Assembly: GCF_014191495.1 (NCBI RefSeq)
Contig: NZ_JACHWR010000002.1
Location: forward strand, 930,001 to 994,000
DNA: 64,000 nucleotides
Direction: 5' to 3'
DNA from: Nocardioides soli
GTDB lineage: Bacteria > Actinomycetota > Actinomycetes > Propionibacteriales > Nocardioidaceae
A program made the translations under genes and the position numbers. This document shows positions 13,944 to 35,357 of the stretch, piece after piece (within the stretch, counting starts at the first letter, position 1; each line of letters begins with the position of its first letter). The notes beneath the pieces are model-generated. The model was not told where the DNA came from and did no database searches. It worked only from the letters and a program-made list of their open reading frames with translations.

Positions 13944-14942
13944 TCACTGGTCGGAGGAGTGTCCGGGATTGAGTGCGGTCCCGGGCCGGACGAGCGCGGC
14001 GATGTGGTTCACGGCCAGAGCCGCCTCGCCGAAGCCGATCGAGATCAGCTTGACCTTGCCGTCGTAGTGGGCCAGGTCGCCGGCGGCGAAGACGCGCGTG
14101 CGGTTGGTCCGCATCGTCCGGTCGACGAGGATGTGCCGGCGGTGCAGCTCCAGGCCCCAGCCCTCGATCGGTCCGAGGTCGGCGATGAAGCCCAGGGCCG
14201 CCACCACCGCCTGGACGGCGAGCGTGCGCCGGTCGCCGTCGCGCGTCTCGACCACGACCTCGTCGATGCCGGGGTCGCCGGACACCTTGGCGACCTCGAA
14301 CGGCGTGAGGACCTCGATGCCCGACTCGTGCAGCTGTGTCACGCTTCGCTCGTGGGCGCGGAACTGCGGTCGACGGTGGACCAGCGTGACGCTGCGCGCG
14401 ATCGGCTCCAGGCCGAGCGCCCAGTCGAGCGCGGAGTCGCCGCCGCCCACGACGAGCACGTCCTGGTCGGCGAGCTCGGCGAGCCGGGGCACGAAGTAGC
14501 GCAGCCCGCGGCCGAGGTACTCCGACCCGACGGGGAGCTCGCGCGGCGTGAAGCTGCCGATGCCGCCGGTGATGAGCACCGCCTTGGCGCGCACCAGCTC
14601 GCCGGTGTCGGTGGTGACCTCGACGCCGTCCTCGTGCTCCTCCAGGCCGACGGCGGTGCGCCCGAGCAGCAGCAGCGGGTCGGCCGACAGCGCCTGCTCG
14701 TGCAGGGAGTCGACCAGCTCCTGGCCGCGCACGGCGGGGAGGCCGGCCACATCGTGGATCGCCTTCTCCGGGTAGAGGGCCGCCACCTGTCCGCCCGTCT
14801 GGGGGAGGGCGTCGATCAGCGCGACCCGCAGGTCGCGGAAGCCGGCGTAGTAGGTGCCGTAGAGGCCGGTCGGGCCGGCGCCGACGATCAGGATGTCGAC
14901 GTCGTAGACCGTCCCGGGGGTCGTCTCGTCGGCGGTGCTCAT
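13944..14942 (-). CDS. Ferredoxin-NAD(P) reductase, thioredoxin-reductase-like (FNR2 type)
   Basis: 332 residues. The FAD-binding motif GAGPTGLYG lies near residue 20, the NAD(P)-binding motif VVGGGDSALDWA near residue 160, and the C-terminal FAD motif FAAGDLAHYDGKVKLISIG near residue 290. There is no CxxC redox pair in the NADPH domain, so it is not a thioredoxin reductase; it matches the FNR2 class. It should pass electrons from NAD(P)H to the ferredoxin encoded just upstream, with which it overlaps by 4 bases (ATGA). Together they can feed the divergent Rieske dioxygenase. Confidence 0.9.
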   Translation of the reverse strand: MSTADETTPGTVYDVDILIVGAGPTGLYGTYYAGFRDLRVALIDALPQTGGQVAALYPEKAIHDVAGLPAVRGQELVDSLHEQALSADPLLLLGRTAVGLEEHEDGVEVTTDTGELVRAKAVLITGGIGSFTPRELPVGSEYLGRGLRYFVPRLAELADQDVLVVGGGDSALDWALGLEPIARSVTLVHRRPQFRAHERSVTQLHESGIEVLTPFEVAKVSGDPGIDEVVVETRDGDRRTLAVQAVVAALGFIADLGPIEGWGLELHRRHILVDRTMRTNRTRVFAAGDLAHYDGKVKLISIGFGEAALAVNHIAALVRPGTALNPGHSSDQ

Positions 14943-15238
14943 GCGACGTCCGGGTGGTCCGCGCCGATGTCGCCGACCTTGCGGGCCCCGCCGGGGGAGC
15001 CCAGGTCGGCGAAGAACTCGGCGTTGATCCGCTCGAAGTCCCGCGCCTCCTCGGGCAGGTCCTCGTGGTGGTAGATCGACACCTGGGGGCAGACCGGTTC
15101 GCAGCGGCCGCACTCGACGCACTCGTCGGGCTGGATGTAGAGCATCCGGTTGCCCTCGTAGATGCAGTCGACGGGACACTCCTCCACGCACGACCGGTCC
15201 ATCACGTCGATACAGGAAGCAGTGATCACGTAGGGCAC
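14939..15238 (-). CDS. fdxA: 7Fe ferredoxin, FdxA-like
   Basis: 99 residues from a GTG at 15238 (GGAG upstream). Cysteines at 9, 17, 21, 25, 40, 43, 46 and 50 fit the FdxA pattern of one 3Fe-4S and one 4Fe-4S cluster: SCIDVMDRSCVEECPVDC and then CVECGRCEPVC. The length and the C-terminal tail match actinobacterial FdxA. It is a one-electron carrier for oxygenases. The coupling to the reductase and the divergent orientation from the dioxygenase suggest it is the electron donor to the Rieske centre; P450 or other enzymes could also use it. Confidence 0.92.
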   Translation of the reverse strand: MPYVITASCIDVMDRSCVEECPVDCIYEGNRMLYIQPDECVECGRCEPVCPQVSIYHHEDLPEEARDFERINAEFFADLGSPGGARKVGDIGADHPDVA

Positions 15239-15444: not shown

Positions 15445-16788
15445 ATGCCAGACGAGGCGTCCGAGCGAGTGGCAGGTCCCATGCTCGTGGAGGACTGGGA
15501 TCGGCTGACGTTCCGGGTCAACCGGGAGGCCTACCGGTCTCCGGAGGTCTTCACGCGCGAGCGGGTCGACATCTGGTTGCGGACCTGGCTCTACCTCGGG
15601 CACGAGACCGAGATCCCCGACGCCAACGACTTCAAGGTGCGCACGATCGCGGGTCGACCGCTGATCTTCTGCCGCGACAGCGAGGGCGAGGTGCACGCCT
15701 GGCTGAACTCCTGCCCGCACCGTGGCACGGTGCTCTGCCGGGAGACCGAGGGCTCGCAGCGCCGGTTCCAGTGCTTCTACCACGCGTGGACCTTCAACAA
15801 CGACGGCACCGTGGCGGCGATTCCGGACGACGAGGCGTACGCGGACCTCGACGCGCTGCGCAAGAACATGATGCTGCGCTCGGTGCCCCGCCTGGAGATC
15901 CACGAGGGCTACGTCTTCATCTCGTTCAACCCCGACGTGCCGCCGCTGCTGGAGCACCTCGGCGAGGCCGCCGAGTACATGACCATGATCGAGGAGCAGC
16001 ACGCCAGCGGCGTCACCACGCTGCCGGGCGTCCAGCTCTACAGCGTGCGCGGCAACTGGAAGCTGGCCGTCGAGAACGCGATGGACGGCTACCACTTCTC
16101 GCCGACCCACAACACGTTCGTCGGGTACCTGCGCGAGAACGGCTTCGCGGTGACCGACGACAACCAGTACGCCTACAACCTGGGCAACGGGCACTCCCTG
16201 CTGGTCCTGACCGGCCACGGCGGCCGGATCAGCATGATCTGGGAGCCGCGCTTCGGCGAGGCCGAGAAGCAGCGCACCGAGGAGCACCGCGCCGAGATGG
16301 TGGAGCGGCTCGGCGAGAAGCGCGCGCACTACGTCGCCGACGAGAGCCACATCCTGTTCGTCTTCCCGAACCTGCTGCTCTTCGACATCGAGGGACTCTC
16401 GATCCGCCAGATCGAGCCGGTCGCACCGGGCCACACCGACGTGCGGGCCTGGCAGCTGGTGCCGCGCGAGGAGGACCCCGAGTCCCGCGCCCTGCGGATG
16501 AAGACCGTCGTCAGCTTCGTCGGCCCCGGTGGCCTGGCCACGCCCGACGACATCGAGGCGTACGAGGCCGTGCAGCGTGGCATCGAGGCCACCCGCGGCG
16601 CCGGCGAGCTCGACTTCAGCGACATGTCCCGCGGCCTGGCCGACGAGGTCAAGGGCACGCAGGGCCGATCGATCGACGAAGGCGCGATGCGCGGTTTCTG
16701 GCGGCACTGGGAGCAGGTGCTCGGCGCCGGCCTCGAGGTGACCGGCGACCGCCCCGCGTCGTTCCTGGAAGGTAGGGAAATGCCATGA
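15445..16788 (+). CDS. Rieske non-heme iron ring-hydroxylating dioxygenase, alpha subunit
   Basis: 447 residues. The Rieske 2Fe-2S motif is C90-x-H92 and C110-x2-H113 (CPHRG, CFYHAW). The catalytic iron motif is ENAMDGYHFSPTH with H217 and H222, and bridging D214. Family members add both atoms of O2 to an aromatic ring to form a cis-diol, or demethylate or hydroxylate. It starts at an ATG with a GGAGAAGGAG ribosome site and overlaps the beta subunit by 4 bases. Electrons probably come from the divergent ferredoxin/reductase pair. The substrate is unknown; no dedicated cis-diol dehydrogenase lies next to it. Confidence 0.95.
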   Translation: MPDEASERVAGPMLVEDWDRLTFRVNREAYRSPEVFTRERVDIWLRTWLYLGHETEIPDANDFKVRTIAGRPLIFCRDSEGEVHAWLNSCPHRGTVLCRETEGSQRRFQCFYHAWTFNNDGTVAAIPDDEAYADLDALRKNMMLRSVPRLEIHEGYVFISFNPDVPPLLEHLGEAAEYMTMIEEQHASGVTTLPGVQLYSVRGNWKLAVENAMDGYHFSPTHNTFVGYLRENGFAVTDDNQYAYNLGNGHSLLVLTGHGGRISMIWEPRFGEAEKQRTEEHRAEMVERLGEKRAHYVADESHILFVFPNLLLFDIEGLSIRQIEPVAPGHTDVRAWQLVPREEDPESRALRMKTVVSFVGPGGLATPDDIEAYEAVQRGIEATRGAGELDFSDMSRGLADEVKGTQGRSIDEGAMRGFWRHWEQVLGAGLEVTGDRPASFLEGREMP

Positions 16789-17282
16789 CGCAGACCGACA
16801 TCCGCACCGTGACCCGCAGCGAGGTCGAGGACTTCCTCTACGCCGAGGCCGAGATCCTGGACTCCTGGAACTACGACGGCTGGCTCGCGCTCTTCGAGGA
16901 GGGTGCCCGCTACGAGATCCCGACCACCGACTACCGCGGCTGGTCGCTGCACACGGGCGGCTCGTTCGTCGACGACGACTACGACCTGATCCAGGCCCGG
17001 GTCAAGCGGCTGAAGTCCCGCAAGGCTCACGCCGAGAACCCGCACTCGCGCACCCACCGGATGATCTCCAACGTGCGCCTCGCCCCGGGTGAGGACGACA
17101 CGCTGGTGGTGAAGGCGAACTTCATCGTCTCCCGAGCCCGTGACGGCCACTTCGACTCCTACATGGGTCGCTACGAGCACGTCCTGGTGTCCGGTTCGGA
17201 CGGCTTGAAGTTCCGGCTGCGCCGCACCCTGCTGGTGCACGAGGCGCTGCAGCTCGGCGCCCGGCTCTCCTTCATCCTCTAG
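16785..17282 (+). CDS. Ring-hydroxylating dioxygenase, beta subunit
   Basis: 165 residues of the SnoaL-like / NTF2 fold typical of dioxygenase small subunits: EVEDFLYAEAEILDSW, GWLALFEEGARYEIP, HRMISNVR and LRRTLLVHEA. Beta subunits are structural partners in the alpha3-beta3 hexamer. The ATG overlaps the alpha stop (ATGA), so the two are made in equal amounts. A 21-base gap with a GGAGG ribosome site precedes the next gene. Confidence 0.93.
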   Translation: MTQTDIRTVTRSEVEDFLYAEAEILDSWNYDGWLALFEEGARYEIPTTDYRGWSLHTGGSFVDDDYDLIQARVKRLKSRKAHAENPHSRTHRMISNVRLAPGEDDTLVVKANFIVSRARDGHFDSYMGRYEHVLVSGSDGLKFRLRRTLLVHEALQLGARLSFIL

Positions 17283-17303: not shown

Positions 17304-18512
17304 ATGATCCGACACACGTTGCTCTTCCGCTTCGGCGAGGAGGTCACCGAGTTCAAGCGCGAGGAGATCCTGGCCGAGCTCGCGACGTTCCCCGACACGT
17401 ATCCGCAGATGCAGAACTGGTCCATGGGCACGAACCTGTCCAGCCGCGACCAGAGGTTCTCGCACGGGATGGCGGTCGACTTCGACGACGAGCAGGACCT
17501 GCTCGCCTACCTCAACAGTGACTCGCACGAGGCCTTCGTGCGGGACAAGTGGCGCCCGGTGATCGCCGACCAGGCCATCGTCGCCTACGAATACGACCGG
17601 CCCGGTGCCGGCGACGGAAGGGAGGGACGTGTGAACCAGCGTCCGCGCGGGCCGTTCGGCATGGAGTACGCCCGCATCGAGGTGCCCGACATGCAGGCCA
17701 CGATCGACTTCCTGCAGTACCACGTGGGCCTCCAGCTGGAGCAGCAGACCGACGAGTACGCCTACCTGCGTGCCGACATCGAGCACCACGCCATCGAGCT
17801 GATCAGCGCGCCCGAGCGCGAGGACGGCTGGACCACGGCGATCGGGTTCAGCGTCGAGAGCGAGCAGGTCCTGGAGGAGATCCGGCAGCGCGTGGTCGCC
17901 GCCGGGCTCGAGGTGCTGCCCCTGCAGGAGCGCCAGCAGGCGCTGTGCGACAACGGCTTCGCCGTCAAGGACCCCGAGGGCCTCATCGTGGAGCTCTTCA
18001 CCGAGTTCCAGGAGTACGCCGAGCCGCCACACATCGAGATCCGTCCGCTGGACCTGGTGCACCCCTTCCTCGCGACCACCAAGTACGAGGAGATGCTCGA
18101 GTTCTACATGGACGTGCTGGGCTTCCTGGCCTCCGACCACATCGTCGGGTCCGCGACGTTCCTGCGCTGCGAGGACCGCTACCACCACAGCCTCGCGATC
18201 CAGAAGAACGACGAGCACTACGTCGCGCACCTCTGCTTCGCGATGAAGAGCCTCGACCACGTCATGCGGATGCGTGCCCGCGCTCTCTACAAGGGTGCGC
18301 CGATCGCCTCCGACATCGTCAACCACTCGGCGTCGACGTCGATCGCGTTCTACCTGCACGACACCAAGTTCGGTCCGCGCTTCGAGCTCTGCGACAGCCA
18401 CCGGGTGTTCACGCCCGAGGAGCACGAGACGCACCGCGCCCGGAAGATGCCCGCCGACCCGCGCAACATCGACGTGTGGCGACCGGCGTCCGACGACTGG
18501 GGTCGTTTCTGA
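17304..18512 (+). CDS. Dabb domain fused to type I extradiol dioxygenase (VOC superfamily)
   Basis: 402 residues. Residues 1-100 are a stress-responsive alpha/beta barrel (Dabb) domain (MIRHTLLFRFGEEV, then LAELATFPDTY). Residues about 115-402 are a two-module vicinal-oxygen-chelate dioxygenase; the Fe(II) ligands of the second module appear as H253 (LVHPF), H295 (HHSLAI) and E361 (FELCD), with NHSASTSIAFYLHD as the His/Tyr active-site stretch. It should cleave a catechol next to the hydroxyls. A strong GGAAGGGAGG (17616-17625) precedes an in-frame GTG at 17631, which would give a free 293-residue dioxygenase of normal family length, so two products may be made. Confidence 0.88.
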   Translation: MIRHTLLFRFGEEVTEFKREEILAELATFPDTYPQMQNWSMGTNLSSRDQRFSHGMAVDFDDEQDLLAYLNSDSHEAFVRDKWRPVIADQAIVAYEYDRPGAGDGREGRVNQRPRGPFGMEYARIEVPDMQATIDFLQYHVGLQLEQQTDEYAYLRADIEHHAIELISAPEREDGWTTAIGFSVESEQVLEEIRQRVVAAGLEVLPLQERQQALCDNGFAVKDPEGLIVELFTEFQEYAEPPHIEIRPLDLVHPFLATTKYEEMLEFYMDVLGFLASDHIVGSATFLRCEDRYHHSLAIQKNDEHYVAHLCFAMKSLDHVMRMRARALYKGAPIASDIVNHSASTSIAFYLHDTKFGPRFELCDSHRVFTPEEHETHRARKMPADPRNIDVWRPASDDWGRF

Positions 18513-18538
18513 CCGAGGACCTGGTCGAGCTCCTGGGC

Positions 18539-19675
18539 GTGCTCGACCAGACGCCGGCACCCCGCGGCCGCGAGTCCCTCGCGGCCGCGGCGCTGGCCAC
18601 CTGGTGCGCCCGGCGCTGGCCGGCGATCGAGTGGACGGTTCAGCCCTACGGCGCCGAGGGCGCCAACCTGGTGGCCACCTGCGGTCCGGGGCCCTTGCTC
18701 TACTCGCACCTGGACACCTCCCTGGACGGGGACGGCCGGAGTGCGCCCGAGGTGACCGGTCGCACCGACCCGCCGGCCCCGCTGCGGATCGCCGACGGGG
18801 TCGCGGAGGGCTTCTGCCTGGGCGTGGCCCGGGCGCCGGTGGCGGCCGCGGTGGCGGCCTTCGCCCGTGCCGGGCGGGGCACCCTGCTGATCGCCGGCAG
18901 CGGCACCCATCGGCGCGGTGGGCACGGCGAGGGGGTTCGGGCCTTCCTGGACACGGCACCACCGATCGAGTCCGCGATCGTCGCCAAGGGCGGACCGCCG
19001 GGGCTGATCACCGCGGAGCCCGGCGCCGCGTTCCTGCGGGTCCGGGTCACCGGCCGTCCGGGGGTCTCGATGCTGCCGGAGACGGCGCTGCCGGCCGGCG
19101 GGATCGTGCGCCATGCCGGCCTGGTGCTGGATGCCGTCGAGACCTGGCGGGAGCGGTACCTGGCCAGCCGGGCGCCGTTCGGCCGGGTCGGCGCCCAGGC
19201 CGGGATCGGTGCGATCCGGGCCGGGTGGACCGAGAAGCCGGACCTGCTGCCGGCCGAGCTGTTGCTCGACCTGTACGTCATCACGGTGCCCGGCGAACGC
19301 GGCTCGCGTCTGGCCACCGAGCTGACCGCCACCCTGCACGCGGTGCTGGCGGGCGGCCCGCTCGAGGGCTGCTCGGCGCACGTCGAGGTGGAGTGGCTGC
19401 ACGATGCCCAGGCCACCGACGAGCGGGCACCGATCGTGACGGCGGCCGAGCACGCCTGGGAGCACGTCTTCGACACCCCGCCGGTGGACATCGTCGGCTG
19501 GACCGGCACCACCGACGGCGTGGTCCTGCGCGAGCACGGCATCGACACCGTCCGGGTCGGACCGCAGAGCGTACGATCGAGCTCCGATCCGCGCCGGGAC
19601 GTCGTCGAGCTCGCCGTCCTCGAGCGCTATCAACGGCTCTACGAGGCGCTCCTGGGCGGTGCGCACGCCCCGTGA
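18539..19675 (+). CDS. M20-family peptidase-like protein with altered active site
   Basis: Fold and layout follow M20 metallopeptidases: HLDTS (first metal ligands) near residue 55, a dimerisation domain with AEPGAAFLRVRVTGRPG, and GTTDGVVLREHGI near the end. The usual catalytic stretch with two adjacent glutamates is replaced by GSGTHRRGGHGEG, so the general base and a metal ligand seem missing. The GTG at 18539 gives 378 residues. A CTG at 18509, overlapping the previous stop as CTGA, would give a more typical N-terminus and may be the true start. Hydrolysis of an amide bond is the family role, but activity here is doubtful. Confidence 0.72.
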   Translation: MLDQTPAPRGRESLAAAALATWCARRWPAIEWTVQPYGAEGANLVATCGPGPLLYSHLDTSLDGDGRSAPEVTGRTDPPAPLRIADGVAEGFCLGVARAPVAAAVAAFARAGRGTLLIAGSGTHRRGGHGEGVRAFLDTAPPIESAIVAKGGPPGLITAEPGAAFLRVRVTGRPGVSMLPETALPAGGIVRHAGLVLDAVETWRERYLASRAPFGRVGAQAGIGAIRAGWTEKPDLLPAELLLDLYVITVPGERGSRLATELTATLHAVLAGGPLEGCSAHVEVEWLHDAQATDERAPIVTAAEHAWEHVFDTPPVDIVGWTGTTDGVVLREHGIDTVRVGPQSVRSSSDPRRDVVELAVLERYQRLYEALLGGAHAP

Positions 19676-19913: not shown

Positions 19914-21314
19914 ATGCGCGTGGACACCATCGTCGCCAACGGGCGGATCGTCAGCCCGAGCGGTGTGTTCGACGCCGCGGTCGCCGTCAAGGACGGCCGC
20001 ATCGTCGCCATCGCCGACGAGAGCGTGCTCCCGGAGGCCGACGAGCGGATCGACTGCGAGGGCAGGTACGTGCTGCCCGGCATCGTCGACCCGCACGTGC
20101 ACCTGGGCGGCGGACGCCCGCTCTCGGAGATCTTCGCCTCCGAGACGGCGTGCGCGGCTGTCGGCGGCGTGACCACCGTGCTGCAGTACCGCCGGTCCCC
20201 GTCGACGTTCCTCGACACCTTCCCGGCGGAGCTCGAGACCGCGAAGACCCGGATGCTCGTGGACACCCAGTTCCACTTCATCATCTCCACGATGGAGCAG
20301 GTGGAGGAGATCCCGCGGTACGCCGAGGAGTTCGGCGTCACGAGCTTCAAGTTCTACATGGGCGGCTACGAGCCGGGGAACCCGATCGGCCTGGTCTCGG
20401 TCAACGATGCCGTGCTCTACGCCGCGATGGAGAAGATCCGCGAGCTCGGCCCCTACGGCTGGTGCATGGTCCACTGCGAGGACGACTCGCTGGTCTGCCA
20501 CCTCACCGCGAAGGTGAAGGAGAGCGGCGGCGACGACCTCGCGGCGTACACCGCGTCGCGGCCCGACTTCGTCGAGGAGCAGGACCTGCTCCGCGCCATC
20601 TGGCTGGCCGACCTGCAGGAGTGCCCGCTCTACGTGCCGCACACGACCGTCGGCATGGCCGTCGACGCCGCCGCCGAGTCGCGGCGCAAGGGCCGCGTCG
20701 TCGTGCTCGAGACCTGCCCCCACTACCTGGCGCTCACCGCCGACGACCCGCGCCTCTCGGCCGCGGGCTCCGGGATCGGCAAGGTGGCGCCGGCGCTGCG
20801 CAACGAGGAGCACCAGGCCGAGCTCTGGCGCGGCCTGCGCGAGGGCTGGATCTCGACCATCGGCTCCGACCACGTGCCGATCCCCAAGTCCGGCAAGGGC
20901 ATCTGGGAGGAGGCGCCCGGCTTCGCCGGCCTCGCCACGATGCTGCCCGTCGTCCTCACCGAGGGCGTGCACCAGGGCCGGATCGCGATCGAGAAGGTCG
21001 CCGAGACGATGGCCTACAACCCGGCCCGCCTCTTCGGCCTCTACCCGCGCAAGGGTGCGATCCAGGTCGGCGCCGACGCCGACCTCGTGGTGGTCGACAT
21101 GGAGACCGAGAAGGTCGTCGGCCCGGACGTCACCCAGAGCGAGTTCGTCAGCGCCTTCGAGGGCGTCGGCCTACGGGGGTGGCCGACGCTGACCATGCGA
21201 CGTGGAGACGTCATCTACCGCGACGGCAAGGTGCTCGCCGAGCCGGGCAGCGGCCAGGTCGTCGAGAAGCCCGAACCGGAGAAGGACAAGGAGAGGAACT
21301 GGCATGCCGCTTAG
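19914..21314 (+). CDS. Dihydropyrimidinase/hydantoinase-like amidohydrolase
   Basis: 466 residues. It carries the full binuclear metal set of D-hydantoinases and dihydropyrimidinases: H61-V-H63, carboxylated K146 (SFKFYMGG), H187 (VHCED), H243 (VPHTT) and D319 (GSDHVP). It should hydrolyse a cyclic imide or ureide C-N bond. The ATG at 19914 follows GGAGGT; the open frame extends further upstream without such a site. It overlaps the following isochorismatase-fold gene by 11 bases. The second hydantoinase at 56968 is a different paralogue. Confidence 0.9.
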   Translation: MRVDTIVANGRIVSPSGVFDAAVAVKDGRIVAIADESVLPEADERIDCEGRYVLPGIVDPHVHLGGGRPLSEIFASETACAAVGGVTTVLQYRRSPSTFLDTFPAELETAKTRMLVDTQFHFIISTMEQVEEIPRYAEEFGVTSFKFYMGGYEPGNPIGLVSVNDAVLYAAMEKIRELGPYGWCMVHCEDDSLVCHLTAKVKESGGDDLAAYTASRPDFVEEQDLLRAIWLADLQECPLYVPHTTVGMAVDAAAESRRKGRVVVLETCPHYLALTADDPRLSAAGSGIGKVAPALRNEEHQAELWRGLREGWISTIGSDHVPIPKSGKGIWEEAPGFAGLATMLPVVLTEGVHQGRIAIEKVAETMAYNPARLFGLYPRKGAIQVGADADLVVVDMETEKVVGPDVTQSEFVSAFEGVGLRGWPTLTMRRGDVIYRDGKVLAEPGSGQVVEKPEPEKDKERNWHAA

Positions 21315-21939
21315 CGTGAAGCTCGACCCCCGAGACGTGGGCCTGCTCGTGGTCGACATGCAGAACGGCTTCTGCCACCCCGAGGGGTCGCGAGGCCAGG
21401 CCTTCGGCGCGGACGCGGTGAAGAACCCGCAGGGGATCATCCCGAACGTCGTCAGCACCATCGACCTCGCGCACCGCCTCGACATCCCGGTGTGGTTCAC
21501 CCAGCAGGTGCACTACGACGACGACGTGCTGCGCAGCCGGCGCCGGATCCCCTCCCACCTGGAGCGTCGCGGCGTCAAGCTCGAGCTCTGCCGGCGGGGC
21601 ACCTGGGACGCCGAGCTGCTCGACGAGATGAAGGCGGTCCGGGAGGACCGCGACGAGGTCGTGGTCAAGCACCGGTCCAGCGCCTTCTTCCAGACCACGC
21701 TCGAGGTCGAGCTGCGGATGCGCGACGTGCAGGTGCTGGTCGTGACCGGCACGACGACGAGCTTCTGCGTGGACTCCACCATCCGCGACGCCTACGCACG
21801 CGACTTCGATGTCGTCGTACCTGCCGAGTGCGTAGCCGACTCCGACGACGCAGCGCATGCCGCGACCCTGGCGAGCATCGAGCGCTTCCACGGAGTAGTC
21901 ACCGATCTGACTGGGTTGACCGCAGCGCTCGATGGCTGA
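21304..21939 (+). CDS. Isochorismatase-fold cysteine hydrolase (amidase type)
   Basis: 211 residues. The D-K-C triad of isochorismatase-like amidohydrolases is visible: Asp in LLVVDMQNGF near residue 19, Lys in EVVVKHRSSAFF near residue 119 and Cys in TTTSFCVDSTIRDA near residue 156, with the cis-peptide VVTGTTT before it. Relatives hydrolyse N-carbamoylsarcosine, ureidoacrylate, nicotinamide or maleamate. Following a hydantoinase in an overlapping gene pair, a carbamoyl or amide product of ring opening is the natural substrate; this is inference. Confidence 0.88.
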   Translation: MPLSVKLDPRDVGLLVVDMQNGFCHPEGSRGQAFGADAVKNPQGIIPNVVSTIDLAHRLDIPVWFTQQVHYDDDVLRSRRRIPSHLERRGVKLELCRRGTWDAELLDEMKAVREDRDEVVVKHRSSAFFQTTLEVELRMRDVQVLVVTGTTTSFCVDSTIRDAYARDFDVVVPAECVADSDDAAHAATLASIERFHGVVTDLTGLTAALDG

Positions 21940-22396
21940 GTCGGGTGGCACGCTCCGGGTCGACGGCGCCGTCGTCCCCGCCGGCCCGCCCGGAGCGACG
22001 CTGCTCGACGCACTCCGGGCGACCGGGAACACCGCACCCAAGGGCGCCTGCCGGCGGGGCGAGTGCGGCGCCTGCACCGTCCTGGTCGGCGACCGGGCGG
22101 TGATGTCCTGCACGATGCTGGCCGCGCTGGTGACCGACGAGGTCACCACCGCGGCCGGTCTCGGTGAGGCAGGCGCGGACCTGTGCGCGGCGTTCGCCGA
22201 CCACGCGGCCTTCCAGTGCGGCTTCTGCACGCCGGGCCAGGTCGTGCGCGCCGAGGCGGTGCTGCGCGAGCGGGTCGACCGCAGCCGCGACGAGATCGTC
22301 CGCGAGATGTCCGGCAACGTCTGCCGGTGCACGGGCTACCGGCAGATCGTCGACGCCGTGTGCGCGGTCGCATCGAGCCGCCGGGAGCTCCGATGA
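21932..22396 (+). CDS. Molybdenum hydroxylase 2Fe-2S subunit (xanthine dehydrogenase / CoxS-like)
   Basis: 154 residues with two 2Fe-2S clusters: CRRGECGACTV with a following MSCTM in the plant-ferredoxin-like half, and CGFCTPG with CRCTGY in the helical half. It carries electrons from the molybdenum centre to FAD. It overlaps the amidase gene by 8 bases. Unusually, a 412-base gap with a tandem repeat separates it from its large-subunit gene at 22809. Confidence 0.93.
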   Translation: MAESGGTLRVDGAVVPAGPPGATLLDALRATGNTAPKGACRRGECGACTVLVGDRAVMSCTMLAALVTDEVTTAAGLGEAGADLCAAFADHAAFQCGFCTPGQVVRAEAVLRERVDRSRDEIVREMSGNVCRCTGYRQIVDAVCAVASSRRELR

Positions 22397-22440
22397 GAAG
22401 CCCGATGTCACGCCGCCCGGTCAGGGGCCGTACCGCCCCG

Positions 22441-22795
22441 GTCGGCGGTGCGTCAGCAACCGTTTCGGGGCTCGGGTTGGTTGCTGGCTCACCGCGGCCT
22501 GGCGCTGCGTCGGTCGGCGGTGTGTGGGCAACCGTTTCGGGGCTCGGGTTGGTTGCTGGCTCACCGCGGCCTGGCGCTGCGTCGGTCGGCGGTGTGTGGG
22601 CAACCGTTTCGGGGGACGGGTTGGTTGCTGGCTCACCGCGGCCTGGCGCTGCGTCGGTCGGCGGTGTGTGGGCAACCGTTTCGGGGGACGGGTCGGTTGC
22701 TGGCTCACCGCGGCCGGGCGCTGCGTCCGGTCGGCGGTGTGTGGGCAACCGTTTCGGCGCACTGGATGGTTGCTGGCTCACCGCCGCGCGTGCCG
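22441..22795. repeat. Tandem array of five 72-base units between molybdenum hydroxylase genes
   Basis: Units start at 22441, 22513, 22585, 22657 and 22730, with periods of 72, 72, 72 and 73 bases. The middle units are nearly identical and the last is most diverged. Each unit holds GTCGGCGGTGTGTGGGCAACC, or close to it, and GGTTGCTGGCTCACCGC, which pair with 13 of 17 matches, so each unit or junction can fold into a hairpin. No ribosome site or credible protein is seen: the frames are open only because 72 is a multiple of three. The rest of the 22397-22808 gap holds nothing else I can support. Confidence 0.85.
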
Positions 22796-22808: not shown

Positions 22809-25800
22809 ATGAGCGCCATCGGCCGGTCCGTCCGGCCGCTGGACTGGCAGGAGAAGACCACCGGCACGGCGAGGTACGCCGCCGACCAGCCGCCCGAGGG
22901 GACGCTGGTCGCGCGGGTGCTCCGCTCGCCGCTGCCGCACGCGGACCTGCGCGGGCTCGACGTCTCCGCGGCACTGCGGGTGCCCGGGGTGCACGCCGTG
23001 ATCACCGCCGCGGACTTCCCGGCCGGTCGGCTCTACGAGCACAGCGGCGCGCCGTACTCCGACCGGCCGCCGCTCGCCGTCGACCGGGTGCTGTACGTCG
23101 GCCACGAGATCGCCGCCGTGGCGGCCGAGACCGCGGAGGCCGCCGACGAGGCGGTCCGGCGGATCAAGGTCCGCTACCGCCGCCGCAAGCCGGTGCTGAC
23201 CGTCGCCGACGCGCTCGCCCCCGGCGCCCCGCAGCTGCACCGGCGCGCCGACGGCGGCAACGTCGCCGTCGCCACCGCCGAGCACTGGGGCGACGTCGAC
23301 CTCGCGCAGGCCAACGCGCACGTCTCGACGCGCGGCACCTTCCGCTACCCCCGGGTCACCCACGCCTGCATGGAGCCGAACACCACCATCGCGTGGTGGC
23401 ACGACGAGCGCCTGGAGATGTGGACCTCCAGCCAGGCGCCGCACTTCGTCGTCCACGAGCTCGCCGCGTTGTTCGGCCTGGAGCTCGACCAGGTGGTCTG
23501 CCGCGACGTCGCGGTCGGCGGCGGCTTCGGCTCGAAGTCCAAGATCTCCGAGCACGAGGCGCTGGCCGCCGCGCTGTCGATGAAGTGCGGCCGTCCGGTG
23601 CTGATCGAGCTCACCCGTGCCGAGGAGTTCGCGTTCACCAAGCCGCGGCACGCCTTCGAGACGACGCTCGAGGCGCACGCCGACGCCGATGGCCGGCTCT
23701 GCTTCCTCGACGCGGTCATCGACGTCGACAACGGCGCCTACAACCACTACGGCCCCTCGGTGATGCGGGCCGGCATCAAGCAGCTGGGCTCGATGTACCG
23801 CCCCGACGCGGTCCGCTGGGACGCCCGCCTGGTCGACACCAACCTGGTGCCCGGCGGTCAGTTCCGCGGCTACGGCCAGCCGCAGACGGCGATCGCGCTC
23901 GAGACCGCGATGGACGAGCTCGCCGAGAAGTGCGGTCAGGACCCGATCGAGTTCCGGATCCACAACTCCGGCCTGCCCGACACGACGCAGCTCTCCGGCT
24001 CGCAGATCGGCTCCAACCGGCTGCGCGAGTGCCTCGCCCAGGTGCGCGAGCGGATCGACTGGGACGCCAAGCGCAACGGCGGTCGGGTGCGCCCCGGCGC
24101 GGGGCCGCTGCGTGGGGTGGGTGTGTCGTCCGGCATGCACGCCAGCGGCTCCTACGCCTACCCCGGCGGCAACACCAGCGCCGCGGGGATCGAGGTCCGC
24201 ACGACCGGCGAGGTGGTGGTCCGCTTCGGCGGCGCCGACGCCGGCACCGGCCAGCGCACGATCCTCGGGCAGATCGCGGCCGAGGTGCTCGGCGTGCCCA
24301 TGGACCGGGTCAGCGTGATCATGGCCGACTGGGACGAGACCCCGCCCGACATGGGTGCGTGGTCGTCGCGCGGCACCCACATGGGCGGCCACGCCGTACG
24401 CCAGACGGCGGAGGCGGTGGCCGCGCGGCTGTGCGAGCTCGGTGCCGAGAAGCTGGGCACCGCCGAGGTGGAGGTCCGTGACGGCCGGGTCGCCTCGGCG
24501 GCCGACAGCGTCGCGATCGAGGACCTCGTCGACCTCGCCGATGAGTCGGTCGACGGGTCGCTGCGCATCGACACGGAGTACGTCGAGCCGAAGATGCAGC
24601 CCTACTGGACCGGCATCCCGCGGCCGAACATCTCCGCAACCTACGCCTACGCCGCGCACGCGATCGAGGTCGAGGTCGACCCCGGCACCGGCGTGATCCG
24701 GGTGGTCGACTACGCCGCCGTGCACGACATCGGGCGGGCGATCAACCCGGCGCTGGTCGAGGGCCAGATCGTCGGCGGCGCGATCCAGGGCCTCGGCGCG
24801 GCGTTGGGGGAGAAGCTCATCTACGAGGACGGCCGGCTCGTCAACGACGGCTACCTCCACTACCCGCTGCCGCGGGCGACCACGGTGCCGTCGATGGACG
24901 TCACGCTGATCGAGGGGCCCGAGCCGGCCGGTCCGTTCGATGCGAAGAGCGTCGGCGAGATCGCGCTGATCCCGGCCGCGCCGGCACTGCTCAACGCGGT
25001 CTACGACGCGACCGGCATCCGGTTCCGGGAGCTGCCGCTGACCCCCGACGTGGTGCTCGCGGCGCTCCGCGAGCGCGACGGCGTGCGGCCGCGCCGGCAC
25101 CACCTGGCCCGCCGGCCCTCGCGCTGGCAGATCGAGCTGTTCCGCCGGCTGTACCCCTACGGCCTCCACCTCCTGCTGGACCGCCTCGGCACCCGGTTCG
25201 CCCGGCGGCGTACGCCGCGCCCGGTGGAGCAGGTGACCCGGCCCGGGACCGTCGCGGAGGCGGTCGCCGAGCTGGCCGCGCCGGACACCGCCGTCATCGG
25301 CGGCGGCACCGACCTGCTGGTCCAGCGCGACCAGGCACTGACCTTCCCGACCGTGCTGGTCGGCACCGGTGGCATCGCCACGATGCGGAACGTCGACGAG
25401 CAGCCGGACGGCAGCTGGTGGATCGGCGCAGCGGTGACGCTCGCGGAGCTGGCCGCGTGGGCCGAGGGCAGGGTGCCGATGCTCGCGGAGGCGGTGCGCA
25501 CGATCGCATCCGCGCAGATCCGCGAGGTGGCCACCGTCGGTGGGAACCTCGGCCAGGAGAAGCGCTGCTGGTTCTTCCGCAACGGCTTCGACTGCTACAA
25601 GCGCGGTGGGGTCAGCTGCCCCTGCTACGCCGTCCAGGGCGACCACCGGCTGCACCACGCCGCGATCGGCGGCCACCGCTGCCAGGCGGTGACGCCGTCC
25701 GACCTGGCCACCGTCTTCGACGCCCTCGACGCCCGGGTGCGGCTCACGGGACCGAGCGGCTCGCGCGAGATCTCGATCGCGGAGCTGTACGTCGGCCCCG

Positions 25801-26192
25801 CCGAGCTCGACCTGCGCCGCGACGAGCTCGTCGAGGCGGTGCTGCTGCCCGCCGGGGTCGCCGAGCGGGTCGGGGCGTTCGCCAAGCTGCAGCAGTGGGA
25901 CGGCGACTTCGCCCTGGTCTCGGTGGCGCTCTGCGTCTCGCCGGACCCCGACGGCCGCTGGGCGTCGGTCCGCTACACCTTCGGCGGGCTGGCGGCCACG
26001 CCGTGGCGGCCGCGGCGCCTGTGCGCGGAGCTCGCGGGCACGACGCCGACCGCCGACATCGTCACCTCGCTACTCGACAAGGAGCTGGAGTGGGAAGCGC
26101 ATCCGTTGCCCGGGAACCGGTGGAAGCTCGACGCCGCCGTCGGCCTGGCCCGCGAGGTCACCGAGCGGGCGTTGGGGGTCGGCCATGAGTGA
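22809..26192 (+). CDS. Molybdenum hydroxylase: large (Mo) and FAD subunits fused
   Basis: 1127 residues. Residues 1 to about 765 are the molybdopterin subunit: VGGGFGSKSKISEHEA, FRGYGQPQTA, GADAGTGQR and the active-site Glu in SVGEIALIPAAPA. After a linker, residues about 805-1127 are the FAD subunit (VIGGGTDLLVQ, ATVGGNLGQE). The FAD part carries four cysteines (EKRCWFFRNGFDCYKRGG, then SCPCYAVQGD) and GGHRCQA, the insertion that binds a 4Fe-4S cluster in 4-hydroxybenzoyl-CoA reductase. Such enzymes hydroxylate N-heterocycles or aldehydes, or reductively dehydroxylate aroyl-CoA. Order, fusion and cluster make it unlike ordinary xanthine dehydrogenase. It overlaps the next gene by 8 bases. 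Confidence 0.9.
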   Translation: MSAIGRSVRPLDWQEKTTGTARYAADQPPEGTLVARVLRSPLPHADLRGLDVSAALRVPGVHAVITAADFPAGRLYEHSGAPYSDRPPLAVDRVLYVGHEIAAVAAETAEAADEAVRRIKVRYRRRKPVLTVADALAPGAPQLHRRADGGNVAVATAEHWGDVDLAQANAHVSTRGTFRYPRVTHACMEPNTTIAWWHDERLEMWTSSQAPHFVVHELAALFGLELDQVVCRDVAVGGGFGSKSKISEHEALAAALSMKCGRPVLIELTRAEEFAFTKPRHAFETTLEAHADADGRLCFLDAVIDVDNGAYNHYGPSVMRAGIKQLGSMYRPDAVRWDARLVDTNLVPGGQFRGYGQPQTAIALETAMDELAEKCGQDPIEFRIHNSGLPDTTQLSGSQIGSNRLRECLAQVRERIDWDAKRNGGRVRPGAGPLRGVGVSSGMHASGSYAYPGGNTSAAGIEVRTTGEVVVRFGGADAGTGQRTILGQIAAEVLGVPMDRVSVIMADWDETPPDMGAWSSRGTHMGGHAVRQTAEAVAARLCELGAEKLGTAEVEVRDGRVASAADSVAIEDLVDLADESVDGSLRIDTEYVEPKMQPYWTGIPRPNISATYAYAAHAIEVEVDPGTGVIRVVDYAAVHDIGRAINPALVEGQIVGGAIQGLGAALGEKLIYEDGRLVNDGYLHYPLPRATTVPSMDVTLIEGPEPAGPFDAKSVGEIALIPAAPALLNAVYDATGIRFRELPLTPDVVLAALRERDGVRPRRHHLARRPSRWQIELFRRLYPYGLHLLLDRLGTRFARRRTPRPVEQVTRPGTVAEAVAELAAPDTAVIGGGTDLLVQRDQALTFPTVLVGTGGIATMRNVDEQPDGSWWIGAAVTLAELAAWAEGRVPMLAEAVRTIASAQIREVATVGGNLGQEKRCWFFRNGFDCYKRGGVSCPCYAVQGDHRLHHAAIGGHRCQAVTPSDLATVFDALDARVRLTGPSGSREISIAELYVGPAELDLRRDELVEAVLLPAGVAERVGAFAKLQQWDGDFALVSVALCVSPDPDGRWASVRYTFGGLAATPWRPRRLCAELAGTTPTADIVTSLLDKELEWEAHPLPGNRWKLDAAVGLAREVTERALGVGHE

Positions 26193-26691
26193 GCGCGCCG
26201 AGCAGATCGTCAGCCGGCTGAGCGCGGGTGGGGTCGAGCTCGCGGCGTACCTGCCCGACAGCTGGCTGACCCCGCTGATCGACCGGGTCATCGCCGAGCC
26301 GCGGATCACTCACGTGCGGGTGAGCCGCGAGGACGACGCGATGGCCGTGGCCGGCGGCGCGGCCCTGATGGGCAAGCGCGCCGCCGTGCTGTGCCAGAAC
26401 GCCGGGGTGCTGCTGTCGGCCAACGTGCTGGCGGCCTTCGCGCTCCACCACCAGTTGCCGCTGCTGATCGTGGCCGCCGCCCGGGGCGGCGCCGAGGACG
26501 GGTTCTTCTACCAGATGTACAAGGGACAGGTGACCGCCGGCGTCGCCGACGCCATCGGCCTCAGCGTGCACCGGGTCGACGGCCCGGCCGACGACTGGCT
26601 GTTCGAGCGGGCCAGCGAGCAGGCGTGGCTGCAGCGACGGCCCACCGTGCTGCTCTGCTCCCGCGACGCACTGCTGGGAGCCGGATCATGA
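26185..26691 (+). CDS. ThDP-dependent decarboxylase, PYR-domain subunit (ComD-like)
   Basis: 168 residues forming a lone pyrimidine-binding domain of a thiamin-diphosphate enzyme. VSREDDAMAVAGGAALMGK holds the conserved Glu that activates the cofactor, followed by LCQNAGVLLSANVLAAFA. The best-known two-subunit relatives are sulfopyruvate decarboxylase (ComDE) and phosphonopyruvate decarboxylase. Here the setting is catabolic, so decarboxylation of a 2-oxo acid arising from the degraded compound is likelier than coenzyme M synthesis. The stop overlaps the next start (ATGA). Confidence 0.85.
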   Translation: MSERAEQIVSRLSAGGVELAAYLPDSWLTPLIDRVIAEPRITHVRVSREDDAMAVAGGAALMGKRAAVLCQNAGVLLSANVLAAFALHHQLPLLIVAAARGGAEDGFFYQMYKGQVTAGVADAIGLSVHRVDGPADDWLFERASEQAWLQRRPTVLLCSRDALLGAGS

Positions 26692-27290
26692 GGCGCGCGG
26701 TCCTGGCGCAGACGATCGCCGAGCTGGCGCCCGAGCACGTCGTCCTCACCAGCCTGGGGACGGCCGGGCGCGCGTGGCGCGACCACGGCGGGCCGAACCC
26801 CACCTTCTACGGCTCGGACCCGATGGGCGCGGCCCCGGGGCTGGCTCTGGGCGCGGCCCTGGCCCGGCCCGACCTGGAGTTCCTGCTGCTCGAGGGGGAC
26901 GGCGACCTGGTGATGAACCTCGGCTCGCTGCTGGCGGTCGCCGACGCGACGCCGGCCAACCTGCGGGTGATCGTGTTCGACAACGGCCGCTACGAGACCG
27001 GAGGCGGGCAGCCGCTGGCCGCCGCCGGCCGCGCCGACCTCGCGGCGATCGCCGCCGGCGCCGGCTGGCCCGCGGTCCGCCGGCTCGACCGGGCCGCGAG
27101 CCGGGAGGAGATCCGCGCCGCGGTCGGCGAGCTGCTGGCGACGCCCTCCGGGCCGGCGCTCCTGGTCGCCGAGGTCGACCAGGAGGCCTCGCCGTACGGC
27201 GGGCCGGGCGAGCACTCCGGTGCCGAGGCCCGGGTGATCTTCCAGCAAGAGCTGGCCAGATGGGAAGCGACAAGGACGGGTATGAGATGA
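26688..27290 (+). CDS. ThDP-dependent decarboxylase, PP-domain subunit (ComE-like)
   Basis: 200 residues with the diphosphate/Mg2+ motif of thiamin enzymes: GDGDLVMNLGSL followed by VFDNGRYETGG, and the upstream GSDPMGAAPGLALG. It completes the active site with the 168-residue PYR partner encoded just upstream; the genes overlap by 4 bases. A tail of about 30 residues (PYGGPGEHSGAEAR) lies near the C-terminus. The substrate is unknown. It overlaps the following amidohydrolase start by 4 bases. Confidence 0.87.
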   Translation: MRRAVLAQTIAELAPEHVVLTSLGTAGRAWRDHGGPNPTFYGSDPMGAAPGLALGAALARPDLEFLLLEGDGDLVMNLGSLLAVADATPANLRVIVFDNGRYETGGGQPLAAAGRADLAAIAAGAGWPAVRRLDRAASREEIRAAVGELLATPSGPALLVAEVDQEASPYGGPGEHSGAEARVIFQQELARWEATRTGMR

Positions 27291-28756
27291 GCACGCTGCT
27301 GCTGCGCAACGGCCGACTGCTGGACCTGGACAACGGTGGCGAGATCGGCGACATCGTCGTGACCGACGGGGTCATCGTCGACCTCGGTCCCGGTGCCGCC
27401 GAGCGGTACCGGCCCGACGGTGGCCCGGTCACCGAGGTGGACCTCGGGGGCGACATCGTGATCCCGGGCCTGGTCAACTCGCACACGCACTCCAACCAGA
27501 CCATCGAGAAGGGGCTGTGCGACGCGCTGCCGCTGGACGCCTGGATGGTCGTCGCCAGCTACGGCGGCGCCGGCGCCCGGCTCTCGCCGCGCGACCTCTA
27601 CGTCTCGGCGATGGTCGGTGCCCTGGAGATGGTGCGCAGCGGCGCCACCTCGGTGCTCGACTGCGCCCGCTCCGACAACGAGTGGGTCGACGACGGCATG
27701 GACGCGATCATGCAGGCGTACGCCGACCTCGGCTTCCGCGCGAACGTCGCGATCCAGTACTCCGACCTCGACTTCTTCTCGTCGATCCCGGTCGACCTCG
27801 TGCCGGGTGGCGCCGGCCTGCGCAAGCCGCCGGTCGCGGCACCGGACGTCGTGCTCGCTGCGGCGAACCGGTTCGTCGACCGCTGGCAGGGCAGGTCGCC
27901 GCTGCTGCAGCCGCTGCTGGGGCCGTCGTCCCTCCCGCGCTGCTCGACCGAGCTCTTCGAGGCCAGCGTCGAGACCGCCCGCGGCCGCGGCGTACGCATG
28001 CAGACGCACCTGCTGTCCGCCGCCTCGCAGGTGCCGATGGCCCAGCAGCGCTACGGCGTCTCGACGGTGGAGTTCCTCGCCAAGCTCGACGCGCTGCAGG
28101 AGTGGGCGTCGTTCGCGCACGCGATCTGGCTCAGCCCGGAGGAGATCGAGCTCTTCGCGCAGACCGACGCGGTCGCCGTACACAACCCGGCGAGCAACCT
28201 GAAGCTCGGCGCCGGCGTCGCGCCCGTGCCGGCGCTGCTCAAGGCCGGCGCGAAGGTCGCCATCGGCGCGGACGGCGCCTCGAGCAACGACACGCAGAAC
28301 ATGTTCGAGACGCTGAAGCTCTCGACGATCCTGCACCGCGTGCAGGGTCCGCCCTCGACGTGGCCCACGGCGGTCGACGGGCTCGGCATGTGCTGGAACG
28401 GCGGCGCCGCCGCCCTCGGTGCCGACGTCGGACGGCTCGCCGTCGGCGCCGCCGCCGACTTGACGGTGATCGACACCGGCTACGTCTGGCCGGCCCCGGC
28501 CGAGCAGCTGCGTCAGCAGCTGGCCTACGCCGAGCTCGGCTCCGCCGTCCGCAGCGTCTACGTGGCGGGCGAGGGAGTCTTCGTCGACCGCCGCTTCACG
28601 TCGATCGACGAGGACGCCATCCGCGCCGAGGCGCGCGAGATCGCCGCCCGGATCTGGAGCACCCTCCCCGACCGCCTCGCCCGCTTCGAGGAGGTCCGCC
28701 CGATCCTGGAGCAGGTCGAGGCCGCCGTCGGCGGCACGGTCGGCACCTGCCACTGA
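27287..28756 (+). CDS. Amidohydrolase, cytosine deaminase / chlorohydrolase (ATZ/TRZ, SsnA-like) family
   Basis: 489 residues of the subtype III amidohydrolase superfamily. Mononuclear metal ligands appear as NSHTHSNQT (HxH), MQTHLLSA, and GADGASSND (Asp); FAHAIWL and HNPASNLKLG are also typical of the ATZ/TRZ group. These enzymes deaminate or dehalogenate N-heterocycles. An unusually long C-terminus of about 40 residues follows the composite beta domain. It is the last gene of the operon; the palindromic element begins 25 bases past its stop and may act in termination. Confidence 0.88.
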   Translation: MSTLLLRNGRLLDLDNGGEIGDIVVTDGVIVDLGPGAAERYRPDGGPVTEVDLGGDIVIPGLVNSHTHSNQTIEKGLCDALPLDAWMVVASYGGAGARLSPRDLYVSAMVGALEMVRSGATSVLDCARSDNEWVDDGMDAIMQAYADLGFRANVAIQYSDLDFFSSIPVDLVPGGAGLRKPPVAAPDVVLAAANRFVDRWQGRSPLLQPLLGPSSLPRCSTELFEASVETARGRGVRMQTHLLSAASQVPMAQQRYGVSTVEFLAKLDALQEWASFAHAIWLSPEEIELFAQTDAVAVHNPASNLKLGAGVAPVPALLKAGAKVAIGADGASSNDTQNMFETLKLSTILHRVQGPPSTWPTAVDGLGMCWNGGAAALGADVGRLAVGAAADLTVIDTGYVWPAPAEQLRQQLAYAELGSAVRSVYVAGEGVFVDRRFTSIDEDAIRAEAREIAARIWSTLPDRLARFEEVRPILEQVEAAVGGTVGTCH

Positions 28757-33881: not shown

Positions 33882-35357
33882 TCAGCCGAGCAGCTTGACG
33901 GCGACCGCCTTCTCGCGGGTGAACTCGTAGAGCGCCCGGTAGCCGTTGCCGGCGGAGAACCCGCTCTGCTTGTACATGTTGAACGGCATGCCGATCACGC
34001 CGGCGTCCGCGAACTGGTTGACCGAGATCTGGCCGGCGCCGATCTCCGAGGACATCCGCAGGGCGCGCGAGACGTCCTGGGTCCACACGCAGGCGAGCAG
34101 GCCGAAGTCGGTGCCGTTGGCGAGCGCAATGGCGTCGGCGTCGTCGGTGAAGGTCTCGACGGTCAGCACCGGCCCGAAGATCTCCTGGCCGACGATCGGG
34201 GCGTTGCGGTCGGTGACGCCGAGCACCGTGGGTGCCAGGAAGTTGCCGCTGTCGCGACCGTCGGGGCGGGAGCCGCCGAGCAGCAGCTCGACGCCGTCGC
34301 CCAGCGCGCCCTCGACCAGGCCGCTCACCCGCTCGTGCTGGACGGAGTTGACCAGGGGGCCCATGTCGAGATCCTCGTCCCAGGACCCGATCCGGATCTC
34401 GGACATCGCGGCGACGACGCGCTGCCGGACCTCGTCGGCGATCCCGGCCTGGACCAGCAGGCGGGAGCCGGCGTTGCAGTTCTGGCCGGCGTTCTCGGTG
34501 ATCGAGCGGACGATCGCGGGGACCGCGACGTCCAGGTCGGCGTCGGCGAAGACGAGGTTCGGGGACTTGCCGCCGAGCTCGACCTTGATCGGGGTGAGGT
34601 TCTGGGCGGCGGCCTGCATCACCAGGCGCCCGGTGGCCACCGAGCCGACGAAGCTGATGTGGTCGATGCCCGGGTGGCCGACGAGCGCGGCGCCGAGCTC
34701 GGCACCGACACCGGTGAGGACGTTGAGCACGCCCGCCGGTACGCCGGCCTCCTCGGCCAGCTCGACGAGGGCGTGGATGACCAGCGGGGCGACCTCCGAC
34801 GGCTTCAGCACGACGGCGTTCCCGGCCGCCAGTGCGGGGGCGAGGTTGGCCGCGCAGAGCACCGCGGGCACGTTCCACGGCAGCACGATCGCGCACACGC
34901 CGTGCGGCTCGCGCCGGGTGAAGCCGAAGTAGTCGGGGGAGCGGGTCGGCAGCGTCGCGCCGGTCAGCTTGTCGGCCCCGCCCGCGGTGAACTGCAGGAT
35001 CGAGCCGGCGATCTGGACGTTCAGCAGCCCGCCGGAGAGCGGCTTGCCGACGTTGCGCGCCTCGAGCGCCGCGAGCCGGTGCTGGTGCTGGAAGACCAGC
35101 CCCGCCCACCGGCCCAGGATCGCGCCGCGCTCGGACGGCGACGTACGGGCCCAGCCGCGCGCGGCCGCGCGCGCAGCGGCGACCGCCCGGTCGACGTCGC
35201 CGACCTCGCTCGCCGAGATCTGGCCGAAGGCCTCGCCGGTGGCGGGGTCGACGGAGGCGAAGGAGGCGCTGCGTTCGAGCCAGGAGCCGCCGATGTAGGT
35301 ACCGGGGTGGTCGCCGCTCGGAGCGGGCGTCGAGGAGAATTTCTCAGCCGTGGTCAC
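33882..35357 (-). CDS. Aldehyde dehydrogenase (NAD(P)+), ALDH superfamily
   Basis: 491 residues from the GTG at 35357. Cofactor motif PWNVPAVLC, general base Glu in KVELGGKSPN and nucleophile Cys in NAGQNCNAGSRL; the C-terminal EIFGPVLTV also fits. It oxidises an aldehyde to the acid. An in-frame ATG further upstream would place the start inside the TGCGAGACGG motif at 35409, so the GTG is preferred. It diverges from the BMP importer operon and shares its promoter region, and so probably its regulation. The aldehyde may come from the HpcH/HpaI aldolase or the alcohol dehydrogenase nearby. Confidence 0.9.
   Translation of the reverse strand: MTTAEKFSSTPAPSGDHPGTYIGGSWLERSASFASVDPATGEAFGQISASEVGDVDRAVAAARAAARGWARTSPSERGAILGRWAGLVFQHQHRLAALEARNVGKPLSGGLLNVQIAGSILQFTAGGADKLTGATLPTRSPDYFGFTRREPHGVCAIVLPWNVPAVLCAANLAPALAAGNAVVLKPSEVAPLVIHALVELAEEAGVPAGVLNVLTGVGAELGAALVGHPGIDHISFVGSVATGRLVMQAAAQNLTPIKVELGGKSPNLVFADADLDVAVPAIVRSITENAGQNCNAGSRLLVQAGIADEVRQRVVAAMSEIRIGSWDEDLDMGPLVNSVQHERVSGLVEGALGDGVELLLGGSRPDGRDSGNFLAPTVLGVTDRNAPIVGQEIFGPVLTVETFTDDADAIALANGTDFGLLACVWTQDVSRALRMSSEIGAGQISVNQFADAGVIGMPFNMYKQSGFSAGNGYRALYEFTREKAVAVKLLG

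Follow-up and report, generated by a model that had tools for sequence, protein, structure and literature searches.

A molybdenum–FAD fusion protein of Nocardioides soli, very probably an orthologue of LumJ, the quinoxalinone hydroxylase of lumichrome catabolism

A 64,000-nucleotide stretch of the Nocardioides soli genome (contig NZ_JACHWR010000002.1, positions 930,001 to 994,000, hereafter the window; the source genome comprises 5,813,891 bases) contains an uninterrupted open reading frame (ORF) of 1127 amino acids, from ATG to stop, at 22809..26192 on the + strand. A GGAGG sequence is located 7 bases 5' of the ATG. Pfam domains were found on the encoded protein in the order Ald_Xan_dh_C (residues 18-126), MoCoBD_1 (151-386), MoCoBD_2 (411-694), FAD_binding_5 (808-1015) and CO_deh_flav_C (1023-1090). 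The protein is a single chain, with the molybdenum part (residues 1 to ~760) at the N-terminus joined to the flavin adenine dinucleotide (FAD) part (~800-1127) at the C-terminus. A previous interpretation made from the letters alone (the sequence-only reading) had described a large subunit that comes first and is fused to the FAD subunit, and had pointed out that this order is unlike that of eukaryotic xanthine dehydrogenase; the Pfam order on the single chain bore out both statements. The small subunit, with two [2Fe-2S] motifs (Fer2 and Fer2_2 in the domain search), is encoded by a separate gene at 21932..22396 (+). Together with this subunit the protein has all the features of the xanthine oxidase family (Ald_Xan_dh_C, MoCoBD_1/2, FAD_binding_5).

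A scan of a genome contig collection found 34 related loci. The fusion is not a local artefact, as the molybdenum and FAD parts share one open frame in 32 of them. The exceptions are L043, where a frameshift splits the gene, and L069, where the match covers only query residues 438-1005. These two were excluded from an alignment (A1) of the window protein with the other 32 sequences. Residue E717 was invariant in the 33 fused sequences of A1; it is aligned with a glutamate of HcrA, and we take it to be the catalytic one.

The closest characterised relative is LumJ of Nocardioides (Pimelobacter) simplex ATCC 6946 (locus L040), to which the window protein is 84% identical over 1119 amino acids and with which it falls into the same clade; the two also share the fusion, the gene order and the neighbouring enzymes. 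Riboflavin catabolism was reconstituted in 2025 with the lum cluster of that strain (PMC12746152), whose genome project is cited there. The report gives in vitro activities for LumA-E, H-M, U and W-Y. According to it, LumJ converts quinoxalinone 22 to quinoxaline-dione 30a in vitro, the product being identified by a standard, LC-MS and NMR, and the Rieske dioxygenase gave a new product from 30a and none from 22. Phenazine methosulfate is listed in the legend of the LumJ assay.

The window contains the corresponding lumichrome (riboflavin) catabolic cluster at 13944-47856, with 23 lum genes (A-F, H-R and T-Y) plus the 2Fe-2S gene. With their N. simplex ATCC 6946 counterparts all of these genes, the 2Fe-2S gene included, share 67-96% identity and the gene order. 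The letters were assigned by gene order, domains and mass. For 13 of the 15 proteins compared, the mass predicted from the window was within 5 kDa of the mass given in PMC12746152 (for instance 81.1 against 81 kDa for LumU, 40.8 against 40 for LumW, 26.5 against 26 for LumX and 46.5 against 46 for LumE). The exceptions were LumH (50.6 against 80 kDa) and LumJ (121.2 against 140 kDa). No window gene was assigned to LumG or LumS, which are described in the same report as not conserved in other Nocardioides. Homology and synteny thus leave little doubt that the gene at 22809..26192 is an orthologue of lumJ and would encode the xanthine-oxidase-family quinoxalinone hydroxylase of lumichrome catabolism. 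As judged from the sequence, the enzyme very probably acts in the bacterial degradation of vitamin B2, where it would introduce an oxygen atom. Pterin/folate, quinazolinone, benzimidazole and barbiturate-type pyrimidine had been considered as substrates from the gene context and were dropped after the match to the lum cluster.

It is very unlikely that the enzyme acts within the same cluster on a variant substrate, for instance, following the older Pseudomonas RF pathway, a quinoxalinone without the oxidised methyl group. Pathway variants are expected by the authors of PMC12746152. However, the window retains LumU (86% identity), the P450 that oxidises the methyl group, and contains orthologues of every characterised step of lumichrome breakdown.

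The FAD part carries an insertion with five cysteines, C920 (RCWFF), C929 (DCYKRGG), C937 and C939 (SCPCY) and C958 (HRCQA). The codons of C920 and C958 delimit a segment at 25566..25682 (+). C920, C929, C939 and C958 were invariant in all 33 fused sequences of A1. They were also present in 57 of 57 rows of a second alignment (A2), a selected set of fused and unfused FAD domains. C937 was variable (Cys in 28 of the 75 rows of another alignment). A2 consisted of the window and 56 of 62 references (L052, L059, L061, L062, L069 and L071 were excluded) and apparently contains one gene twice, L012 and L049 being apparently one contig. Its rows needed at least 33% identity to the window FAD domain; L001, L009, L010 and FAD subunits below 33% were dropped beforehand. 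The dropped subunits include all six, more distant ones, from which the insertion is absent, three from the genome of the window and three from Ferrovibrio loci.

The four invariant cysteines of the window are spaced C-x8-C-x9-C-x18-C, or (8,9,18). Among the 57 selected rows of A2 the spacing was (9,8,18) in 22, (8,9,18) in 17, (8,9,17) in 15 and (10,8,18) in 3, and all fall within (8-10, 8-9, 17-18). The reference values are (9,8,18) for PaoB, the FAD subunit of the Escherichia coli periplasmic aldehyde oxidoreductase PaoABC (YagTSR), (11,8,18) for 5y6q_B, and (15,7,8), that is C-x15-C-x7-C-x8-C, for HcrB of 4-hydroxybenzoyl-coenzyme A reductase (HBCR). We take the four HcrB cysteines with this spacing to be the cluster ligands, and both 5y6q_B and HcrB presumably hold a [4Fe-4S] cluster via these residues; an HBCR study reportedly names an additional [4Fe-4S] cluster in its title. 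In HcrB the column of C929 is occupied by Trp, whereas the cysteines of PaoB stand in the same alignment columns as those of the window, with nearly the same spacing. The PaoB-like motif was present in all 25 unfused FAD-subunit loci L014-L038, which had been selected by E <=1e-30 in the same bacterial family. By alignment and spacing, the four-cysteine set of the window FAD domain is PaoB-type and not HcrB-type.

A 2026 preprint (PMC13404670) regards a [4Fe-4S] motif of four cysteines in the FAD subunit as characteristic of PaoABC. The preprint also describes a Flavobacteriaceae protein, MGYG000448108_02082, that shares 47.7-53.4% identity with PaoABC sequences, has the four-cysteine motif and is potentially a fusion of subunits. 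It resembles the window protein by this description, and a fusion carrying the motif therefore has a precedent. We consider it likely, on the strength of the conserved cysteines, that LumJ holds a PaoB-type [4Fe-4S] cluster. The sequence-only reading had compared the cysteines with those of HBCR and had associated them with low-potential reductive chemistry. Its recognition of an additional [4Fe-4S]-type set in the FAD part was correct, while the likeness to HBCR did not extend to the spacing. Since the spacing is PaoB-like and PaoABC oxidises aldehydes, the motif is no pointer to reductive chemistry.

The full-length structure model had a mean predicted local distance difference test score (pLDDT) of 81.7 and a predicted template modelling score of 0.85, with residues 918-960 under 50. 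The FAD-domain model, built with 57 sequences, had a pLDDT of 86.2, and only about 53-63 in the cysteine loop. The best matches of the FAD-domain model with VIA-align were 5y6q_B (Z 34.7, root-mean-square deviation 2.7, 314 aligned residues), 5g5g_B (34.3, 2.5, 304) and 1rm6_B (32.1, 3.7, 307), followed by subunits with Z of 29.8 or less. These three are the subunits that bear such an insertion. The same three led by Foldseek E-value, with 1rm6_B at the top. For the full-length model the HBCR alpha chain was the best PDB match (template modelling score on the target 0.91), and many family members matched nearly as well.

These comparisons bear on two other functions. An HBCR-like reductase, in which the extra cluster would feed electrons to molybdenum so that an aromatic (acyl-CoA) substrate is reductively dehydroxylated, has in its favour that the large and FAD chains of known structure closest in sequence are HcrA and HcrB (HcrA gave the best sequence match in the PDB to the large part) and that 1rm6 is first by Foldseek E-value for both models. 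HcrABC (1rm6) belongs to the xanthine oxidase family and has its cysteine-bearing FAD insertion at the same place. It differs in ligand spacing, in the Trp mentioned above and in having separate chains; HcrABC reduces a CoA thioester. The scores of the window proteins were well below the NCBIfam cut-offs (495.3 of 994.55 bits for TIGR03194, 150.1 of 404.55 for TIGR03195 and 108 of 257.8 for TIGR03193), and 0 of 11 genomes passed TIGR03194. The models for XdhA and HBCR alpha scored alike (507.7 and 495.3 bits). Among the families shown, no CoA ligase or CoA transferase match was found in the 17 cluster proteins scanned. Moreover, the N. simplex orthologue hydroxylates in vitro (PMC12746152). 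We regard the reductase as extremely improbable. Low-potential reductive chemistry gained no support from the comparison, and a close homologue with the same fusion, LumJ of N. simplex, is already a characterised hydroxylase, an outcome that the sequence-only reading had itself named as refuting it. As the striking features of the locus belong to a pathway solved in 2025, the reductive-chemistry lead should be dropped.

The motif could also be taken to indicate a PaoABC-type aldehyde oxidoreductase, and the aldehyde oxidase chains 5y6q_B and 5g5g_B are indeed the best FAD-domain matches by VIA-align. But PaoABC consists of three separate chains and acts on aldehydes, and the large part of the window protein scored 354.7 bits against a PaoC equivalog cut-off of 1180. 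The gene context is lumichrome catabolism, and the orthologue acts on a quinoxalinone (PMC12746152), so that this function, too, is hardly credible. Quinoline 2-oxidoreductase (1t3q) resembles the LumJ orthologue as a molybdenum hydroxylase of an N-heteroaromatic ring; it differs in its separate subunits and gave a weaker FAD-subunit match (Z 29.3).

In the proposed reaction, LumK/LumL would supply the decarboxylated quinoxalinone, and LumJ with the 2Fe-2S subunit (21932-22396) would oxidise its N=C-H carbon. The resulting quinoxaline-2,3-dione would be the substrate of the Rieske dioxygenase LumA-D. Electrons would pass from molybdenum via the two [2Fe-2S] clusters to FAD; beside the flavin, a [4Fe-4S] cluster of the PaoB type may serve as an additional electron exit. 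A broader proposal is that the fused molybdenum–FAD lineage represents a distinct class of N-heterocycle hydroxylases, in which the PaoB-type cluster would pass electrons directly to a ferredoxin (LumB in the lum cluster) and not to NAD+, so that quinoxalinone hydroxylation would pay for Rieske dioxygenation; two other clades of the fused enzyme (see below) would then belong to this class and act on other heterocycles. We consider this proposal speculative and unlikely.

Several observations weigh against the assignment of the window protein as a LumJ-type hydroxylase with the above composition. The LumJ assay was performed with the N. simplex protein, and the function of the window protein is deduced by orthology. 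PMC12746152 describes the typical xanthine oxidase as having a [2Fe-2S] domain at the N-terminus, an FAD domain and a molybdenum domain at the C-terminus; it attributes these domains to LumJ and gives its mass as 140 kDa. In the N. simplex DNA, however, the fused ORF encodes the molybdenum domain first, the 2Fe-2S part is separate, and the fused ORF alone corresponds to 119 kDa. Because of this difference in mass and the separate 2Fe-2S ORF, the composition of the assayed LumJ is not fully clear. The [4Fe-4S] cluster is predicted from the sequence, and the cysteine loop was modelled at low confidence. Finally, the 2Fe-2S gene and lumJ of the window are 412 bp apart, with a tandem repeat between them, whereas the gap was at most 33 bases in the 32 loci measured. 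Notwithstanding these points, we have high confidence that the window enzyme belongs to a known family, as a new orthologue of a hydroxylase already characterised.

The function is thus already known via N. simplex LumJ; apparently new here are the separate 2Fe-2S gene and the PaoB-type motif in the anatomy of LumJ. The main text of PMC12746152 contains no instance of the string '4Fe' and no mention of the separate 2Fe-2S gene. Neither the PaoB-type [4Fe-4S] motif of LumJ nor the separate 2Fe-2S gene was found described in the open-licence PMC literature. The 2Fe-2S gene seems to lie outside the 25 letters lumA-Y.

In 32 of the 34 related loci the 2Fe-2S ORF, located by regular expression, ends at most 33 bases from the start of the match to the fused protein and sometimes overlaps it; none was found at L056 and L069. 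In N. simplex (L040:9372-10001) the separate 2Fe-2S ORF lies 5' of lumJ and overlaps the fused ORF in the sequence ATGA. Compared with N. simplex, only the window has the 412-bp gap, and only the window has transposition genes between lumM and lumN. The gap contains a 72-bp tandem repeat of 4.8 copies at 22439..22784 (+), which is no part of the enzyme. A 22-base core of the repeat occurs twice, 73 bp apart, at each of two other places of the same genome (G000 C1:1298971-1299065 and C3:91556-91650). The transposition genes identified by domain scan are an IS21-type istB/istA pair at 29288-31623 (-) and a DDE transposase gene at 32271-33497. A plasmid search with the fused protein matched 1180 records, 0 of them at 60% identity or more, and a plasmid search with LumI gave no match at 60% identity or more.

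The remaining genes of the cluster are orthologues of the following lum genes. Upstream of lumJ are lumA (13944..14942, -; ferredoxin reductase, 84% identical to N. simplex), lumB (14939..15205, -; ferredoxin), lumC and lumD (15481..16788 and 16785..17282, both +; Rieske dioxygenase alpha and beta), lumE (17304..18512, +; extradiol catechol dioxygenase with a Dabb domain), lumF (18476..19675, +; putative metallohydrolase with weak M20-type matches), lumH (19914..21314, +; dihydropyrimidinase/hydantoinase family) and lumI (21316..21939, +; isochorismatase-fold, RutB-like amidohydrolase). Downstream of it, lumK (26185..26691, +) and lumL (26688..27290, +) encode the N-terminal-type and C-terminal-type subunits of a thiamine pyrophosphate (TPP) decarboxylase, lumM (27260..28756, +) a TRZ/ATZ-type amidohydrolase and lumN (33882..35408, -) an aldehyde dehydrogenase. 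They are followed by lumO-R (35520..40348, +; ABC transporter with a BMP/PnrA-type binding protein), lumT (40800..41885, -; zinc alcohol dehydrogenase), lumU (42125..44347, +; self-sufficient P450, 86% identical to N. simplex) and lumV, lumW, lumX and lumY (44619..47856, +), encoding an FAA hydrolase, an amidohydrolase, an aldolase (according to PMC12746152) and a cupin, respectively. Taken together, the predicted products suggest cyclic ureide hydrolysis, TPP-dependent decarboxylation, N=C-H hydroxylation, Rieske dioxygenation, extradiol cleavage and BMP-type transport.

The fused sequences fall into three clades. The lum clade contains sequences 77-86% identical to the window protein, from Nocardioides carbamazepini, P. 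simplex, Dactylosporangium roseum, Nocardioides sp. LHD-245 and Nocardioides alcanivorans. The second clade (L044-L051) is actinobacterial and 50-54% identical, the third (L052-L072) mostly proteobacterial and 37-41% identical. In a tree of 57 large subunits, which included no HBCR or PaoC reference and from which rows with fewer than 650 query positions and identical sequences had been dropped, the 33 fused rows and the frameshifted L043 formed one clade (support 96/88). As all fused rows are in one clade, a single origin of the fusion fits the sample. L043 was labelled 'separate' owing to its frameshift alone, and two label changes were therefore counted instead of one. Of 198 sampled genomes of the family, 37 had a match to the FAD domain at E 1e-30, and five of these, including that of the window, had at least 46% identity in a frame longer than 1100 amino acids. 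Copies of the lum type and of the second clade occur together in P. simplex, N. carbamazepini and Nocardioides sp. LHD-245.

The two additional clades, which occur in other catabolic contexts, were not found in print. The neighbours of the second clade, for which one representative per cluster was scanned, include an MhpB-like LigB-type extradiol dioxygenase, an MhpC-like hydrolase, a luciferase-like oxidoreductase and a PF11723 (homotrimeric ring hydroxylase) Rieske protein. Genes for an HOV aldolase, an acetaldehyde dehydrogenase and an FAA hydrolase are also present in some of these loci. From this gene content we guess that a quinoline-type, benzo-fused N-heterocycle is degraded; a literature search for a quinoline-type pathway paper matching the clade found none. 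Recurrent neighbours in the third clade, counted by cluster, were DUF1177 (12 loci), luciferase-like proteins (11) and NMT1-type binding proteins (7), and M17 peptidase family members were present in L065 and L072. Gene calling of the neighbouring loci was rough, and some small ORFs were missed or shortened.

Some loci of the lum clade deviate from the window. The lumJ gene of N. alcanivorans (L043:12115-13389) is broken into two frames near the junction of the molybdenum and FAD parts, by a draft error or a true frameshift. In L039 (16357-19868) and L042 (16185-19752) lumM is followed by an ABC transporter whose binding protein is of the NMT1/THI5 type, which adds another sort of uptake system to the lum cluster. 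D. roseum (L041 and G210:C1:3350264-3353319) has lumH-M, with two transposase genes directly 5' of lumH, and no LumU match was found in this species at E 1e-100. LumC (83%) and a LumE split into two frames are encoded farther downstream, and the lum pathway of D. roseum is possibly a variant or decaying.

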